The notes under the pieces: generated by a model
Databases searched by the model: none
The model's input: only the letters and a program-made list of their open reading frames with translations
What the model was told of the DNA's origin: nothing
DNA from: Candidatus Magasanikbacteria bacterium CG_4_10_14_0_8_um_filter_42_12
GTDB lineage: Bacteria > Patescibacteriota > Patescibacteriia > Magasanikbacterales > UBA922
Direction of reading: 5' to 3'
Assembly (NCBI GenBank): GCA_002784795.1
Contig: PFLZ01000020.1
Location: forward strand, 1-9,297
Length of the DNA: 9,297 bases
Part shown: positions 3,002 through 8,720 of the stretch, piece after piece
How positions within the stretch are numbered: the stretch's first letter is position 1
How the letters are laid out: each line of letters opens with the position of its first letter
Position numbers and translations under genes: made by a program

Positions 3002-3162
3002 AGAGCCAATTTAGAATCTTTTTCCTGACTCCATTTTGTCCTGTTTTGGCTGCAAAATGTTCAAATTTCGTCGTCATAATACATTATCCCTCCTCAATTT
3101 TCTCATTTTTCGCTCAAAACATGAACAAAATAGCTCTAGAAAAAAGATTCTAAACTGGCTCT
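3002..3162. repeat. 22-nt inverted repeat spanning the sigma/anti-sigma gap
   Basis: The arms at 3002-3023 and 3141-3162 are reverse complements at 21 of 22 positions, with a 117-nt spacer. The arm core is AGAGCCA-R-TTTAGAATC followed by a T-run. The right arm covers the last codons of the sigma C-terminal frame; the left arm ends 15 nt before the start of the 499-residue membrane protein. In the mRNA this would form a long stem just ahead of that start codon. The 161-bp size with terminal inverted repeats would also fit a MITE-like element, but I see no target-site duplication directly flanking the arms. Confidence 0.65.
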
Positions 3163-3450
3163 GAGAAATAGGAGGAAGAGATGGAGTGGCATCTGCTTGC
3201 GGAGTGTCTTGATCGATCGGGAGAATGCCATCTTGCAGCTTGCTTCACTCTTGCCGAGCACCTCTGCGATTTCTTTATAGCTTTTTTCTTCCCAGAGTCG
3301 GAGCATCAAGATGTCTCGTTGCTCTGATGACAATTTCGCGAGGTACGGTTTGAGAGATTCTATTTCTATGTATGCGTGAATGTCTGCCATTTGTTCTTTC
3401 ACATCTGGGATATCCCAGGCATCCTCGATAGATACATCATATTTTTTGTT
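3136..3450 (-). CDS. ECF sigma factor, C-terminal half (region 4), out of frame with the N-terminal half
   Basis: This frame encodes the sigma region 2-4 linker and region 4. Useful coding begins near 3450 with KKYDVSIEDAWDIPD and continues through LSSEQRDILMLRLWEEKSYKEIAEVLG, KSEASCKMAFSRSIKTLRK, the helix-turn-helix that reads the -35 element. It ends in a hydrophobic MPLHLFLLFL tail at a TAG at 3138-3136. The frame is open up to an ATG at 3495, but the residues before KKYD are shadow sequence of the N-terminal half. Joined across the A6 run at 3447-3442, the two halves make an ECF sigma of about 192 residues, a normal length. The last residues (RASLESFF) are encoded by one arm of the 3002-3162 inverted repeat, so the tail may have been altered by it. 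Confidence 0.75.
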   Translation of the reverse strand, partial: NKKYDVSIEDAWDIPDVKEQMADIHAYIEIESLKPYLAKLSSEQRDILMLRLWEEKSYKEIAEVLGKSEASCKMAFSRSIKTLRKQMPLHLFLLFLRASLESFF

Positions 3451-3713
3451 CGATAGTGATCGATGACGGCACTGCGAGCGATCGTATAGAGCCATGTGCG
3501 GAACGATCCTTTCATTGCATCAAATGTATCTATCTTGTGCAGTGCTTTGACAAAAATATCTGCCGTGATATCTGCCGCGGTTTCTTTTTGATGTGTTTTG
3601 TAATAGACAAAGCGATAGATCTCTTTGATATACAGATCATAGAGCTGGCCAAAGGCCTCACGATCGCCGTGCGTTGCGGCATCTGCCCAACGCTGTATAC
3701 GTGTGTTGTTCAT
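3399..3713 (-). CDS. ECF sigma factor, N-terminal half (region 2), frame broken at an A6 run
   Basis: Sigma-70 region 2 of an ECF factor, which binds core RNA polymerase and the -10 element. DREAFGQLYDLYIKEIYRFVYYKT, ADITADIFVKALHKI and GSFRTWLYTIARSAVIDHYR follow the family order closely. At residue 90 (…HYRTK) family similarity stops and a short unrelated tail (NMMYLSRMPGISQM) ends at 3399. Region 4 resumes in the -1 frame right after the A6 run at 3447-3442. One added A there would restore a continuous RTKKYDVSIED linker. The cause could be a real mutation, a sequencing or assembly homopolymer error, or -1 slippage: the zero-frame heptamer is A AAA AAT. The start is the ATG at 3713. The gene is followed by its presumed anti-sigma partner. 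Confidence 0.8.
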   Translation of the reverse strand: MNNTRIQRWADAATHGDREAFGQLYDLYIKEIYRFVYYKTHQKETAADITADIFVKALHKIDTFDAMKGSFRTWLYTIARSAVIDHYRTKNMMYLSRMPGISQM

Positions 3714-3919: not shown

Positions 3920-5236
3920 TTACAATCCAATGTTCACGCGACTCTTTGATTCGCTGCGTGTCTCTTTGTCGTCAATATCGAGAAGTGCGTCGGTTTCTAT
4001 CTCAATATTGAGTGCGTCATCTTCATCAGTATCATCATCATCTTCTTTCTCGTCTGCATCATCAGCATTTTGCTCGTCGTCTGTATCCTGATCATTCACA
4101 TCTTCATGTTTCTCGTCTGATCTATTTCGGTCGTCATTTTTATCGTCATCGTTGTCAGTATCTATTCGCACTTCAATGCCCACAGCAGCAGAGGTGCGTA
4201 AGAAGAGATGCACGCGATCAAGCATGGTCTGCGCCTTATGATAGAGTTCAAACGCATCACCGTATTCTTTGGCAAGGAGCTTTCGATCTGCTTCTTGTTT
4301 CATAGTGACGGCTGCGTCAAATGCTGCGTGTGCTTCTGTGCGTGCGCCATTTTTTTCTTCAAATGTGAGAAGGATTTTTTCTGTGGTAGTAATTTTTGTT
4401 TCAGTGACTTGTTTTGTCTGGGCGAGTGTCCGAGCTCGGTCGTCTTCATCTTTTTCTTCCAATTTTTCTGCATAGTCTGCGCGAACACGTGCCTGGACAT
4501 CAGCTTTGTGTTCGAGCGCGTTGAGGATATGGGTGATAGGTAAGACATGTTCATCCTCATCTGCATCATCGTCGTCTGTTGATGGTGTTGTGGTGGCACT
4601 GTCATCCGTCGTGTCATCGTCTGTGTCTGCGGTCGCGTCATCTTCGAGCGACTGGAAGATGCGTTGCTGGACGCTCAGGAGCGCTTCCAGCCTACTTTGG
4701 GCATTGGCAGCGGCTTCCAGATTTCCTTTTGCTTCCAGCTCTGCCATGAGCGACTCGGCCTTGTCAATATGTGTTGCGAGCCGGGCTGAGAGATCTGCTG
4801 CAATGTCTGCGTCAAGTGCGCCTTCTGTCTCGAGTGCTGCTGCTTCGTGTGATCGGCGTTCTGCGAGCGTGGTTTCCCATGCTACTTTTGCTTCTGCGTT
4901 CACGGTGAAGGCACCGCGTATTTCTTCATTCACGTTCACTTTTATAGGGTAGAGAACATCTCCTGGCAACGCGCCTTGCGCTGCGAATACGGTTCCTCCG
5001 CTAAAAGCTGCGATAATGGCGAGAAAGATTCCTGCAAACATACGATTGTGTGTTACGAGTAAGTGTAGAGGGAAGTGTTTCCCTATACCCATACTATGTC
5101 GGATAGGATCAGATTTTCTTACAGGACTTACCGCTGCCGGGTGTTCCTTCATGTATGACAACATATCACCACGCATATCTGCCGATTCTTGCTTTGTCAA
5201 TCTGACATGGTTCAATTGTTTGTGTAGCTTTTTCAT
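3920..5236 (-). CDS. DUF5667-like acidic single-pass membrane protein, partner of the upstream ECF sigma factor
   Basis: A 438-residue protein. I start it at the ATG at 5236 because this overlaps the sigma stop as ATGA, implying translational coupling. The open frame to 5383 only adds 49 residues of sigma shadow. Layout: about 60 basic cytoplasmic residues (KKLHKQLNHVRLTKQESADMR…YMKEHP); a transmembrane helix at about 66-85 (MFAGIFLAIIAAFSGGTVFAA); then ALPGDVLYPIKVNVNEEI (about 89-106), typical of DUF5667 proteins; then a helical, Ala/Glu-rich region to about 195. An Asp/Thr linker follows, then more helices, and a C-terminal block dominated by Asp and Glu. Proteins of this design commonly follow ECF sigma genes in Patescibacteria, so an anti-sigma or envelope-sensing role is likely but inferred. 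The acidic exported tail could bind cations. Confidence 0.75.
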   Translation of the reverse strand: MKKLHKQLNHVRLTKQESADMRGDMLSYMKEHPAAVSPVRKSDPIRHSMGIGKHFPLHLLVTHNRMFAGIFLAIIAAFSGGTVFAAQGALPGDVLYPIKVNVNEEIRGAFTVNAEAKVAWETTLAERRSHEAAALETEGALDADIAADLSARLATHIDKAESLMAELEAKGNLEAAANAQSRLEALLSVQQRIFQSLEDDATADTDDDTTDDSATTTPSTDDDDADEDEHVLPITHILNALEHKADVQARVRADYAEKLEEKDEDDRARTLAQTKQVTETKITTTEKILLTFEEKNGARTEAHAAFDAAVTMKQEADRKLLAKEYGDAFELYHKAQTMLDRVHLFLRTSAAVGIEVRIDTDNDDDKNDDRNRSDEKHEDVNDQDTDDEQNADDADEKEDDDDTDEDDALNIEIETDALLDIDDKETRSESKSRVNIGL

Positions 5237-5757
5237 ACCGTTGGGATGTGTTTCATCTTCTGCTGTACCTGACGTTTTGCCCTGGTGATTCTTACTGAGA
5301 TGACATTCACGGTTTCGCCAGTCATCACGGCGATTTCTTTTGGTTTCAATCCTTCGATATAGCGTAAGAGAAAGGCTTCGCAATAGATGTCTTCGAGGGT
5401 GTCGAGTACTGTCATCAGTGCATCTACATCCATCTTGCTATCTGTCGCGTCTTCAATGCGTTCATTACCTGCTGGTTGGAATCCTGTATCTTGCAGTTGC
5501 TCGAGTGAGTCTTCTTTTTTCCGTCGCCGGTAGTCGATGACTGTGTTTGTCGCTATTTTATAGAGAAATGCTTTGGGGTGTTCGAGTGTATTTCCTTTTT
5601 GCAGATAGTCCCAGACCTTCATGAATGCTTCTTGCGCAAGTTCTTTTGCAATCTCACGATGGTAGACACGAAAATAACAATGCCGAAAAATGGCATCTTG
5701 ATACGTGTCGTAGAGTGTCATGAAACGTTGTTCGATATCTTCCTGCGTTGCTGCCAT
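5233..5757 (-). CDS. ECF-family RNA polymerase sigma factor
   Basis: A 174-residue sigma factor of normal ECF length. Region 2 spans about residues 12-80 (FMTLYDTYQDAIFRHCYFR, AKELAQEAFMKVWDYL, PKAFLYKIATNTVIDYRRRKK) and would bind core polymerase and melt the -10 element. Region 4 spans about 115-168 (VLDTLEDIYCEAFLLRYIEGL, KPKEIAVMTGETVNVISVRITRAKRQVQ) and holds the -35-reading helix-turn-helix. No extra C-terminal domain is present. The stop overlaps the start of the DUF5667-like membrane protein by ATGA, a typical sigma/anti-sigma arrangement. It starts 66 nt after proC, with a promoter candidate in that gap. It shares architecture but not close sequence with the broken sigma at 3136-3713. 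The signal sensed and the regulon cannot be told. Confidence 0.9.
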   Translation of the reverse strand: MAATQEDIEQRFMTLYDTYQDAIFRHCYFRVYHREIAKELAQEAFMKVWDYLQKGNTLEHPKAFLYKIATNTVIDYRRRKKEDSLEQLQDTGFQPAGNERIEDATDSKMDVDALMTVLDTLEDIYCEAFLLRYIEGLKPKEIAVMTGETVNVISVRITRAKRQVQQKMKHIPTV

Positions 5758-5823: not shown

Positions 5824-6591
5824 TTACGTCCCCAGACGTGCAGATTGTTCCTTTGCAATTGAGATCATGTCTTCTAATGACTGCGCTATGTGGTGGTCAT
5901 CAAAATAGTGCAATCCAGCTTCTGTCACGCCGCCTTTACTTGCGACTTGTGCAATGAGTTCTGTAATACTTTGCTCTTTGTTTTCACCCAGATATGCGGT
6001 AGTCCCTTTCAGTAATGTTAATACCAGTGATGCAGCTTCTTGCTCAGAAATTCCCAAGGCAATGGCTTGCTCTTGAAAGACGTGCAACACGCGGAGTAAA
6101 AATGCAGGACCACTGCCAAACAGGGCAGTGAACAGATCAAATTTGTCTTCAGTCAGGTGCAATACAATGCCCATTGTTTCGAGTGCGGCGTACACTTTCT
6201 TCACATCATCATCCATCTCACTCGCACAAAACGCAGTGACAGAATGTCCATATTGCAAGGCAAGATTTGGCATGATTCTGACAAGAGGGATATCTGTGCC
6301 GAGTGTTTCTTGCAGTGTTGAGATCTTTACTCCGGCAATAGGGGAGACAACGATCGTGTTTGAGAGATCTGCGCCGCACAGCTCAGAGAGAACTTCGGCT
6401 GCTTGTTGAGGTTTCACGCAAAGCCACAGCACATCTGCCCATGCTGCAAGCTCGCCAATGTTTTTTGCTGCAACAAGATGCTCATCTGGTGTACTCTTTG
6501 AGATATATTTGAATGTGTTGTCTTGATTTTTTTGCAATCCTGCATGGAGGGCGTGCGCAATATTCCCAAATCCAATAAATCCATGTTTCAT
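5824..6591 (-). CDS. proC: Pyrroline-5-carboxylate reductase
   Basis: Catalyses the last step of proline synthesis, NAD(P)H-dependent reduction of pyrroline-5-carboxylate to L-proline, in the cytoplasm. The 255 residues are near the usual 260-280. The N-terminal Rossmann fold shows GFGNIAHALHAGL (residues 7-19) and LCVKPQ at 57-62. The substrate/dimer part has VSPIAGV, RIMPN (105-109), FGSGPAFLLRVL (158-169) and the C-terminal ASKGGVTEAGL (217-227), all family hallmarks. I place the start at 6591 because MKHGFIGFGN is the true fold start. An ATG at 6645 would add 18 unrelated residues that overlap proB. The proB stop is only 1 nt upstream (TAA-T-ATG), so translation is probably coupled. It is the last gene of the proline operon. 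Confidence 0.93.
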   Translation of the reverse strand: MKHGFIGFGNIAHALHAGLQKNQDNTFKYISKSTPDEHLVAAKNIGELAAWADVLWLCVKPQQAAEVLSELCGADLSNTIVVSPIAGVKISTLQETLGTDIPLVRIMPNLALQYGHSVTAFCASEMDDDVKKVYAALETMGIVLHLTEDKFDLFTALFGSGPAFLLRVLHVFQEQAIALGISEQEAASLVLTLLKGTTAYLGENKEQSITELIAQVASKGGVTEAGLHYFDDHHIAQSLEDMISIAKEQSARLGT

Positions 6592-6592
6592 A

Positions 6593-7360
6593 TTAGGTGG
6601 TGGTAAATGTAGTGAATTGAATTTTATGTGCGAGTGCTTCAACAAGAAAGTTTTGTTTTTGACCGTTCACAATCCAGACTTCAATGCCCGCGTTTCTACA
6701 AATTTCAACTGATTTTAGTTTTGATCTCATGCCACCGGTGCCAAGTGTTGTCGTACTTTCCCCAATGTATGATTCGACAGATTTCAGATCAGAGACTTCT
6801 TCAATCAGTATTGCATCTTTGTCAGTATGGATATTTCGATCATACAAGCCATCGACGTCTGATGCAAGCACGACCAACTCTGCCTCAGCGATCACGGCCA
6901 CGTGTGCAGCAAGTGCATCGTTGTCACCAAACATAATTTCTTCGATGGCGACTGTATCATTTTCATTGATGATAGGTGTGTATCCATTTGCAAGCAACAC
7001 ATCAAGCGTATTTTTTATGTTTGTTCGTGAGACATCGTGGTCAATATCGCGATTTGTGAGCAGACACTGCGCCATGTGTAAGCCAAACTTTTCAAACACT
7101 TCGTCATACATACTCATTAATTTTGGCTGGCCAATCGCTGAGAGTGCCTGCTTCAATTCAACGGTGTTGCCATTGCCGGAGAGAGACACAAATTGTTTTG
7201 CTGTGGCGATGGCACCAGAAGAAACAACGATAATATCATACGTGTCACGCAAGGCGAGCAGTTGACGTGCAATGTCTTCTAGTTTTCCATACGAGATATG
7301 GGTGCTGCCTGCTGTGAGGGTCGATGTGCCAAGTTTGAGGACGATTTTTTTTCTGTCCAT
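6593..7360 (-). CDS. proB: Glutamate 5-kinase, form without PUA domain
   Basis: Phosphorylates L-glutamate with ATP to gamma-glutamyl phosphate, the committed and usually proline-inhibited step, feeding ProA directly. The 255 residues form a single amino acid kinase domain: IVLKLGTSTLT (6-16), VVSSGAIATA (45-54), GQPKLMSMY (78-85), INENDTV (131-137), FGDNDALAA (144-152), VVLASDVDGLYD (163-174) and LGTGGMRSKL (206-215). The enterobacterial enzyme has about 367 residues, including a C-terminal PUA domain that is absent here; PUA-less ProB forms are known. The gene starts 6 nt after the proA stop and ends 1 nt before proC. No Shine-Dalgarno sequence precedes the ATG, so translation likely depends on the upstream gene. 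Confidence 0.93.
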   Translation of the reverse strand: MDRKKIVLKLGTSTLTAGSTHISYGKLEDIARQLLALRDTYDIIVVSSGAIATAKQFVSLSGNGNTVELKQALSAIGQPKLMSMYDEVFEKFGLHMAQCLLTNRDIDHDVSRTNIKNTLDVLLANGYTPIINENDTVAIEEIMFGDNDALAAHVAVIAEAELVVLASDVDGLYDRNIHTDKDAILIEEVSDLKSVESYIGESTTTLGTGGMRSKLKSVEICRNAGIEVWIVNGQKQNFLVEALAHKIQFTTFTTT

Positions 7361-7366
7361 ATAATT

Positions 7367-8548
7367 TTATCTAATTTGTCCGGTTCCAGTGATGAACCAT
7401 TTATTTGTAACAAGACTGTCGAGTCCGATAGGGCCACGACAGTGGAGCTTTTGAGTACTGATTGCGATTTCACCGCCAAGTCCAAACTGTCCACCATCGG
7501 TAAAACGAGATGACGCATTGTGATAGACGGCAGCACAGTCAACCTGCTGTTGAAATGTGTTCGCGTGTGCTGCATTGTTTGAGACGATGACTGCTGAATG
7601 TCCGCCAGAATAGGTATTGATCATATCTATCGCTGTGTCGAGAGTGTCTACCACGTGAAGAAAGAGCGTCGCAGAAAGAAATTCTTTTTTGAGAATTGCT
7701 TCCATATCTTCGACGCGAGTCACGCGTTCATCAATTGCTGCAATGTGTTCGTCGCCGAGGAGCGCAATGCCAGCATCATGCACTGCGGATGTGATCATGC
7801 GGATATGTTCGTCAGACACCTGCTCATTGATCAATACTTTATCAAGTGCATTGCACACGCTTATGCGCGATTTTCCGTTTTTTATAATATCAATTGCCAT
7901 GTCGATATCAGCGTCACTATCAAGATAGAGAAAATTGTTGCCGCGCCCACTCACGAGGACAGGAACAGTCGCATTGGTAGTGACAAAGGTAATCAGCCCC
8001 TCACCGCCGCGTGGAATGATGAGGTCAACATCATGTGTGTTGTTTGCAATGAGTGATTGCGTGTCATCTCTGTCCATATCGAGATATGTTACATATGACG
8101 TATCAATATCATGTATAGACAATGCTTTGTGCCAGAGATCGATGAGAGCGAGATTGGTATGGAGAGATTCTTTTCCACCTTTCAGTAGCACTTTGTTGCC
8201 TGCTTTGAAGGCAAGGGCTGATGCTTCTATCGTCACATCCGGACGTGATTCATAGATAATCAAGATCGTGCCAAAAGTCACAGTCATATTTTTTATCACG
8301 AGGCCATTGTCATGCGTGTATGCAGAAATGATTTTTTGTTCAGGATCTGACAGGGAAATGATAGTTTGGATGGAATCAATCATGTGTTGTATTTTTGTTT
8401 TGTTGAGTTGGAGTCGTTCTCGCAGTGCCACATCTAGGTTTTCTGCATGTGCAAGATCTGTTGCATTTGCGTTTAAGATGTCAGCTTCCCTCTCTTTCAG
8501 CAATCGAGCCAAGGAGAAGAGTACATTGTTTTTTTGTTGAGTATCCAT
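7367..8548 (-). CDS. proA: Gamma-glutamyl phosphate reductase (glutamate-5-semialdehyde dehydrogenase)
   Basis: Reduces gamma-glutamyl phosphate to glutamate-5-semialdehyde with NADPH, after which it cyclises to pyrroline-5-carboxylate. The 393 residues compare with about 415 in well-known members; the difference is a shorter N-terminus. Hallmarks: ILNANATDLAHA (24-35), IYESRPDVTIEASALAFKAGN (98-118), LLKGGKES (121-128), LIIPRGGEGL (176-185), and the catalytic cysteine in SRISVCNALDKVLIN (Cys232). The C-terminus GPIGLDSLVTNKW is also typical. It is the first gene of proA-proB-proC. The ATG at 8548 lies 26 nt beyond a terminator hairpin in its own leader, so expression needs read-through of that attenuator. 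No Shine-Dalgarno sequence is seen. Confidence 0.95.
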   Translation of the reverse strand: MDTQQKNNVLFSLARLLKEREADILNANATDLAHAENLDVALRERLQLNKTKIQHMIDSIQTIISLSDPEQKIISAYTHDNGLVIKNMTVTFGTILIIYESRPDVTIEASALAFKAGNKVLLKGGKESLHTNLALIDLWHKALSIHDIDTSYVTYLDMDRDDTQSLIANNTHDVDLIIPRGGEGLITFVTTNATVPVLVSGRGNNFLYLDSDADIDMAIDIIKNGKSRISVCNALDKVLINEQVSDEHIRMITSAVHDAGIALLGDEHIAAIDERVTRVEDMEAILKKEFLSATLFLHVVDTLDTAIDMINTYSGGHSAVIVSNNAAHANTFQQQVDCAAVYHNASSRFTDGGQFGLGGEIAISTQKLHCRGPIGLDSLVTNKWFITGTGQIR

Positions 8549-8574
8549 ATGTTGATAAAAAATAAAGAAAGAAA

Positions 8575-8595
8575 AAACACCCGGATCGGGTGTTT
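8575..8595 (-). terminator. Attenuator terminator in the proABC leader
   Basis: On the minus strand AAACACCCG-ATC-CGGGTGTTT forms a 9-bp stem with a 3-nt loop. It is followed at once by a long U-tract (TTTCTTTCTTTATTTTTT), the hallmark of an intrinsic terminator. It lies between the operon promoter and proA, with no room for another promoter downstream. It must therefore act on transcripts entering the operon. Its 5' arm can instead pair with an upstream segment (see the antiterminator entry). Confidence 0.85.
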
Positions 8596-8644
8596 CTATA
8601 TATGTGGAAATCAGAAAATCTACACACCCGAGGGAGGAGTGTAG
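8586..8644 (-). promoter_or_regulatory. Alternative antiterminator and pause hairpin of the pro leader
   Basis: Four RNA segments can pair in exclusive ways. Segment 1 is CUACAC (8644-8639). Segment 2 runs UCGGGUGU-GUAG (8631-8620). Segment 3 is ACACCCGA (8593-8586), which is the 5' arm of the terminator. Segment 4 is the terminator 3' arm. Segments 1:2 pair over 6 bp, 2:3 over 8 bp (antiterminator), and 3:4 over 9 bp (terminator). The leader-peptide stop codon lies inside segment 2. A ribosome held at the first Pro pair would cover segment 1 and leave segment 2 free to sequester segment 3. A ribosome reaching the stop would mask segment 2 and let the terminator form. Confidence 0.75.
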
Positions 8645-8682
8645 GTTGGCGGTACGACAGTTGTTTGGATATATCGGTTCAT
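8620..8682 (-). CDS. Proline attenuator leader peptide
   Basis: A 20-codon ORF (ATG at 8682-8680, TAG at 8622-8620) encoding MNRYIQTTVVPPTYTPPSGV, between the operon promoter and the leader terminator. Four of its codons are proline, at positions 11, 12, 16 and 17. They are CCG, CCA, CCT and CCC, so every proline codon appears once. This matches the his, leu and trp logic: a control peptide rich in the amino acid made by the operon, followed by competing hairpins. By position, codons 11-12 (8652-8647) are the useful stall site. A ribosome stalled at codons 16-17 would itself cover segment 2. The ATG is only 9 nt after the -10 box, so the mRNA has almost no 5' UTR. No gene name is known to me for it. 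Confidence 0.85.
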   Translation of the reverse strand: MNRYIQTTVVPPTYTPPSGV

Positions 8683-8691
8683 ACTGAAAAT

Positions 8692-8720
8692 ACTATACGG
8701 TGACAGAGGGAGAATGTCAA
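8692..8720 (-). promoter_or_regulatory. proABC operon promoter
   Basis: TTGACA (8720-8715), a perfect -35 box, is followed after exactly 17 nt by TATAGT (8697-8692), a 5-of-6 -10 box. Transcription should begin near 8685, about 3 nt ahead of the leader-peptide ATG. A small inverted repeat TGACA/TGTCA overlaps the -35 box and spacer, which may be chance. It is the clearest promoter in the window. Confidence 0.85.

Follow-up and report, generated by a model that had tools for sequence, protein, structure and literature searches.

The 150 bases upstream of the proABC operon in the window, by which we mean the whole stretch of 9,297 nucleotides analysed here, very probably act as a ribosome-mediated transcription attenuator that senses the charging of tRNA-Pro and is specific to proline, as models of the folding leader RNA suggest. 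In the mechanism that we propose, a ribosome on a short leader peptide with proline codons would report tRNA-Pro charging to the RNA polymerase. When charged tRNA-Pro is scarce, the ribosome would halt at codon 11 or 12 and hide a first RNA segment; with segment 1 hidden, segment 2 would pair with segment 3 before segment 4 exists, and the polymerase would enter proABC. When proline is abundant, the ribosome would reach the UAG with which segment 2 ends and hide this segment, and the terminator made of segments 3 and 4 would form. Translation would begin on an RNA that is leaderless, or nearly so, in a cell that would couple transcription to translation.

Leader-peptide attenuation is textbook knowledge for several amino acids, and little is known of gene regulation in bacteria of the CPR because few of them can be cultured. 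If our reading is true, reduced and presumed symbiotic cells couple transcription and translation tightly and meter the charging of their own tRNA-Pro; a working attenuator would also give indirect evidence of such coupling in CPR cells.

Architecture of the proABC leader

The leader and the proABC genes are read from the minus strand of the window. A consensus scan placed the -35 element TTGACA at 8715..8720 and the -10 element TATAGT at 8692..8697, separated by a 17-nt spacer; this promoter matches the consensus at 11 of 12 positions, and its -10 element ends 9 nt before the ATG at 8682. A pattern devised post hoc from the window promoter itself, with an ATG 9 nt on and one mismatch tolerated, has a single occurrence in the window and a match in one of 200 shuffles. 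Among 151 ORFs of the host genome, seven promoter-like sites were found, at 11-83 nt 5' of the ATG. From the spacing of the promoter, the +1 of the window RNA is predicted at about 8684-8686, that is, some 2-4 nt 5' of the ATG. Inspection of the sequence revealed no visible Shine-Dalgarno-like stretch before the leader ORF of the window, whose peptide is predicted to be leaderless or nearly so.

The leader ORF, MNRYIQTTVVPPTYTPPSGV* (8620..8682), lies upstream of proABC and comprises 20 codons and a stop (ATG AAC CGA TAT ATC CAA ACA ACT GTC GTA CCG CCA ACC TAC ACT CCT CCC TCG GGT GTG TAG), with four of the 20 encoding proline. The first two of these, codons 11-12 (CCG CCA, 8647..8652), are the predicted sensing site and stand immediately 5' of segment 1; the other two, codons 16-17 (CCT CCC, 8632..8637), fall inside the zone in which the switch is predicted to be off. 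Segment 1, CUACAC (8639..8644), pairs over 6 bp with GUGUAG (8625-8620), and folding adds 3 inner bp to this hairpin. Segment 2, UCGGGUGUGUAG (8620..8631), has the stop codon of the leader as its 3' end and pairs with segment 3, ACACCCGA (8586..8593), in an antiterminator of 8 bp formed by UCGGGUGU (8631-8624) and ACACCCGA (8593-8586). Segments 3 and 4 make up an intrinsic terminator, AGAAACACCCG-ATC-CGGGTGTTTTT followed by a U tract (8573..8597), recognised by folding and by the consensus scan, with a stem of 11 pairs, G-C in five of them, that lies 24 nt from the ATG of proA (8548). The 1:2, 2:3 and 3:4 pairings are mutually exclusive in the folding of the window leader, which reaches -27.9 kcal/mol compared with -19.6 kcal/mol for shuffles (z -2.5; equally low in 3 of 200 shuffles).

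Most of this architecture had been described in the initial annotation of the stretch. Its near-consensus promoter and its 20-codon ORF with Pro-Pro at codons 11-12 and 16-17 are borne out by the sequence, as are two of its three pairings, those of 6 and 8 bp; the third, the terminator, has 11 pairs where 9 had been given, and the U tract and the position of the terminator ahead of proA are confirmed with a gap of 24 nt in place of 26.

Predicted effect of the ribosome position

The consequences of ribosome position were modelled by removing the RNA that the ribosome hides, folding the transcript up to the terminator loop and scoring the upstream pairing of segment 3; the downstream edge of the ribosome was placed 13 nt away from where the A-site codon begins. 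With the A site at codons 10-14, which include the first Pro-Pro pair, this co-transcriptional folding predicts the antiterminator at 0.99; with the A site at codon 15 or at any later position, the stop included, it predicts 0.00-0.07, and 0.00 at the stop codon itself. A ribosome at the start codon gives an intermediate value of 0.52, owing to competition from the 1:2 hairpin. The contrast between the best proline codon and the stop codon was equalled by none of 400 dinucleotide shuffles, and the result was unchanged with ribosome edges of 10-16 nt. Taken on the mean of all four proline codons, the contrast is less striking (9 of 400 shuffles are as good), because codons 16-17 fall in the off zone, where a stalled ribosome is predicted to cover segment 2. 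The proposal that a stall at codons 11-12 would free segment 2 thus finds support in the ribosome-position folding, in which a ribosome at the stop codon hides that segment; of the two Pro-Pro pairs named with this proposal, the first lies in the on zone and the second does not.

At equilibrium, the complete RNA forms the terminator with a probability of 0.97-1.00 in every ribosome state, so the decision must fall during transcription. The best fold of the bare RNA, with no translation, is the antiterminator, and the models leave undecided what an untranslated leader would do.

The proABC operon and its host

All three genes of the operon lie on the minus strand: proA, for glutamate-5-semialdehyde dehydrogenase (7367..8548; NCBIfam proA, 364.8 bits); proB, for a short form of glutamate 5-kinase (6593..7360; NCBIfam proB, 246.2 bits, model positions 1-252 of 363); and proC, for pyrroline-5-carboxylate reductase (5824..6597; NCBIfam proC, 177.6 bits, under the cut-off of 196.75, and Pfam P5CR_dimer), whose start codon we assumed to lie where proB ends, the ORF as listed beginning at 6645. 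The host genome has 1,044,817 bases and a completeness score of 100%. For its SecA (956 aa), the best name-bearing matches are Candidatus Magasanikbacteria, with identities of 85-90%. This identity makes it very likely that the host is a Magasanikbacterium and so belongs to the Patescibacteria (CPR), in keeping with the CPR host that had been considered earlier.

ProA is uncommon around this host, being present in 12 of 59 relatives, 12 of 46 genomes in the family and 16 of 86 in the order; more widely, it was found in 30 of 380 genomes sampled from the class and in 19 of 286 sampled from the phylum. One of three genomes of the same genus has a ProA, which is 37% identical to that of the window. 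The type of operon seen here, with a short ProB and the order A-B-C, was seen again in one genome (G392), whose ProA, ProB and ProC are 55%, 58% and 43% identical to the window proteins. The ProB of another genome (G791) is 55% identical to the window ProB, and the closest ProB proteins are P0001 (97%) and P0002 (85%). Since ProA is rare nearby and this operon type was found again only in G392, the window operon may have been acquired or selectively kept. If the attenuator works, a genome of about 1 Mb has kept or regained fine control of a pathway whose ProA most of its relatives lack.

The nearest relative of the operon, that of G392 (loci L059 and L082), has the same gene order with no promoter, leader ORF or terminator, and its proA begins 15 nt past the upstream ORF. 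Searches with ProA and ProB among the relatives and at the family, order, class and phylum levels, which also spanned the orders of G392, G279, G388 and G250, yielded no other genome with an operon of the window type and a leader.

Recurrence of the plan at other proline operons

Our sample consisted of 55 loci (the window plus 17, 20 and 17 stretches) and included every genome in which ProA had been found, plus G791. From it, 65 heads of pro genes or operons were taken, and 60 were kept after dropping five with less than 150 nt upstream. Early listings of short ORFs with at least three prolines contained many chance frames and were replaced by a rule that is blind to proline: a promoter matching at least 9 of 12 positions, an ORF of 8-35 codons that starts 2-30 nt past the -10 element, and, at 3-60 nt ahead of the gene, a terminator. 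When ATG was the only start codon allowed, this rule selected five of the 60 pro heads, and one ORF among 562 controls; with any start codon, it selected six of the 60 and again one of 562, the control match being without proline. The 562 controls contain overlapping and chance ORFs, so the count was redone on non-overlapping genes, where the rule selected 2 of 346 other genes, their two ORFs having 0 and 1 proline. For non-overlapping genes with at least 100 nt free upstream, the proportions were 6 of 39 pro genes and 2 of 150 others (Fisher p 0.001), and p values here are descriptive, because the thresholds were chosen after the leaders at L068, L125, L135 and L139 had been noticed, three of them via a proline filter, and non-ATG starts were admitted after the GTG case at L129 had been noticed.

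Besides the window, the plan recurs in five genomes. At L068 (G017), the leader ORF MKFFKNKIVPPPMRYLV precedes proA and contains three consecutive prolines; the other four precede proB, namely MSNNLPQPKPSNKTPG at L125 (G388), VKTLSSNSIPFPTTSC at L129 (G121), which starts with GTG, and MKKLFSNNQAPHPREIDFSAR at L135 (G250), all three with isolated proline codons, and MLYRSPQPTPPSNLDLWSVGICI at L139 (G279), with a Pro-Pro pair. In all six leaders the -35 element is exactly TTGACA, and the start codon follows the -10 element at 6-13 nt. Their genomes come from five families, all in one class, where the leaders account for 6 of 42 heads, and by the proline-blind rule none of the 18 heads outside the class has a leader. 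A contig scan of 41 further loci, mostly from Streptomyces and Lachnospiraceae, found none that passes the rule directly upstream of proA. An alignment of related genomes had been proposed in the initial annotation, and the outcome of the comparison is mixed: the plan was found in the five other genomes, but the closest operon, in G392, lacks a leader, and the leaders share no significant sequence. The contrary pattern that had been named, a terminator kept with the proline codons lost, did not appear, since all five of the other leaders found in the class have proline codons.

The predicted switch is clean in four of the six leaders (window, G388, G279 and G121), partial in one (G250) and absent in one (G017). 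At L125, the antiterminator is predicted at 0.87 for the first three proline codons, 0.03 for the fourth and 0.01 at the stop (0 of 400 shuffles); at L139, at 1.00 for all four proline codons and 0.00 at the stop (0 of 400); and at L129, at 1.00 for both proline codons and 0.18 at the stop (3 of 400). The switch of L135 is weak, with 0.94-0.98 at its proline codons and still 0.55 at the stop (31 of 400), and L068 shows no switch contrast despite its three consecutive prolines, 350 of 400 shuffles being at least as good; in this last leader, a long hairpin adjoins the terminator with a one-base overlap. The position of the stop codon relative to segment 2 varies: it is inside the segment for L125 and L135, at the edge for the window and L129, and a few bases past the segment for L139.

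No significant sequence likeness was found among the six leaders (the best pairwise BLASTN E value was 0.024, and forced alignment gave 33-53% identity), nor did RNAalifold find a consensus among them; judged by these comparisons, what is common to the leaders is a plan and not a sequence. In a ProA tree of 53 proteins, constructed without L135 (in-frame TAG) and L081 (no ProA found), the five leader-bearing rows are scattered, and the window pairs with G392 (100/100). The leaders have either several origins or a history of frequent loss, and unrelated leaders on one plan resemble repeated evolution. We regard it as an even question whether one class of Patescibacteria has repeatedly built leaderless attenuators with proline codons before its proline operons, a job that T-boxes would do in other lineages of the phylum. 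As a separate observation, codon 62 of the match to proA at L135 (3344-4570, G250) is an in-frame TAG, which might reflect a pseudogene, an error or recoding.

Proline content and alternative explanations

Every one of the six short ORFs has 2-4 prolines. Taken together, proline makes up 19 of 107 leader residues, compared with 24 of 547 residues in a background of 32 short ORFs linked to promoters (p 2e-7), and 15 of 88 when the window is excluded (p 6e-6); across the five ATG leaders tabulated, it is the sole residue enriched at p <0.05. CCN codons are also in excess in frame (19 of 107 codons) over the other two frames (17 of 202; p 0.014), and shuffled leader ORFs contain a mean of 11.9 prolines, 6 of 5000 reaching 19. 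Segments 1 and 2 are rich in C and G, so part of the proline codons come free. The excess of proline is real, yet smaller than the raw comparison implies, because shuffles and other frames yield proline codons too.

The spacing of the proline codons bears on a first alternative, according to which Pro-Pro is intrinsically slow to translate and dependent on EF-P, and the element would sense the state of EF-P or the general speed of translation, not the supply of proline. Pro-Pro pairs do occur in the window and at L139, and three consecutive prolines at L068; stalling at Pro-Pro (PMC8129111) and a role of EF-P in coupling (PMC5021804) are described in the cited parts of these two reports. In three of the six leaders (L125, L129 and L135), however, the proline codons are isolated, with no Pro-Pro, so tRNA charging fits better than stalling at polyproline, and the genes under control make proline. 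We therefore consider a sensor of EF-P or of translation speed improbable.

The partial origin of the proline codons in base composition bears instead on the possibility that the hairpin is a constitutive terminator, or that of an upstream gene, which just trims or ends transcripts, and that the C-rich sequence contains the ORF by chance. The C-rich segments alone yield about 12 of the 19 proline codons, the sister operon of G392 lacks promoter, ORF and terminator alike, and the finished RNA prefers the terminator whatever the ribosome state, all of which speak for such a simple element. Against this stand the position of the terminator, which follows a promoter-like site (11/12) and ends 24 nt before proA, the presence of the whole combination at six of 60 pro heads, compared with one of 562 controls, and a switch contrast that 0 of 400 shuffles equal; a simple terminator is, in our judgement, improbable too. 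That the leader binds a metabolite or a tRNA, as a T-box or riboswitch with an incidental short ORF, is very improbable, since the window has no Rfam family match at the gathering level, no T-box core (GGTGGTACC...) is seen between 8682 and 8573 and the leader measures merely about 110 nt, even though two further genomes of the phylum have T-box-like leaders before proB. The candidate assignments of the window leader that were tried and set aside are membership of the T-box family (RF00230), whose model gave no match at the gathering level, an Rfam riboswitch, and the terminator of an upstream gene.

Comparison with known systems

T-box leaders sense uncharged tRNA via terminator/antiterminator action, and Firmicutes have pro T-boxes. 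In a T-box, the tRNA binds directly and no peptide is involved, whereas the window leader is predicted to use a peptide. The two T-box-like leaders that we observed before proB lie in G175 (L132, 1461-1695; 69.8 bits, E 3.3e-15) and in G469 (L175, 2491-2660; 59.2 bits, E 1.2e-12), both under the Rfam gathering score of 93.

A closer likeness was found in Salmonella, where, according to the cited part of one report (PMC3641672), the mgtP ORF of the mgtCBR leader has 17 codons with three consecutive prolines, low levels of charged tRNA-Pro raise mgtCBR transcription, as shown by codon changes and a proline auxotroph, and the mgtA leader also has an ORF with proline codons. Like the window leader, mgtP is a short ORF with proline codons amid alternative hairpins; in the account given there, mgtP differs in having a Shine-Dalgarno-like site, of which none is seen in the window, in standing in tandem with an ATP-sensing ORF, and in controlling Mg2+ transport and virulence genes, whereas the window leader precedes proA, proB and proC. 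By this analogy, mgtP is the nearest tested relative in both mechanism and signal.

The attenuators of trp, his, leu, thr, ilv and pheA, in which readthrough occurs when the codons for the product are read slowly (PMC1183508), resemble the window leader in that the leader ORF carries codons for the operon's own product; in the cited part of that source, the classic attenuators include no proline operon, the main text makes no mention of proline, and the named examples come from E. coli and Salmonella, not from the CPR. In Streptomyces lividans, leuL, trpL1, ilvL and others are leaderless leader peptides followed by hairpins (PMC8079986), a layout like that of the window, where the peptide is predicted to be read from the first bases of the RNA; S. 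lividans is an actinobacterium, and no proline leader is among the eight named in the cited part of that work.

Among the matches listed in the open-licence literature, we found no leader-peptide attenuator of proline synthesis and none of any kind in Patescibacteria. What looks new is that such an attenuator would serve proline biosynthesis and would do so in CPR bacteria, probably in leaderless form, with a mechanism that is, by prediction, as already known. The initial annotation had called a proline-codon attenuator for proBA non-standard, which holds insofar as none was found for proline synthesis; leader peptides with proline codons are known, from Salmonella mgtCBR and mgtA (as described in the cited part of PMC3641672).

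Other sequence observations

Upstream of proB at L163 (G526), a long inverted repeat, GGAGCCC...TTACCGAATA / TATTCGGTAACGGGCTCC, was noticed by eye. In the window itself, on the minus strand, the region 5233-5757 encodes an ECF-type sigma factor, and 3920-5383 a DUF5667 protein that has an acidic tail of some length; two overlapping ORFs (3399-3713 and 3136-3495) appear, by eye, to be a second sigma factor split across two frames. In the region 223-920, also on the minus strand, a small ORF has a weak match to HicA_toxin (24.9 bits, with a cut-off of 27) and adjoins an ORF of 143 aa that, by its position only, is a possible antitoxin partner.
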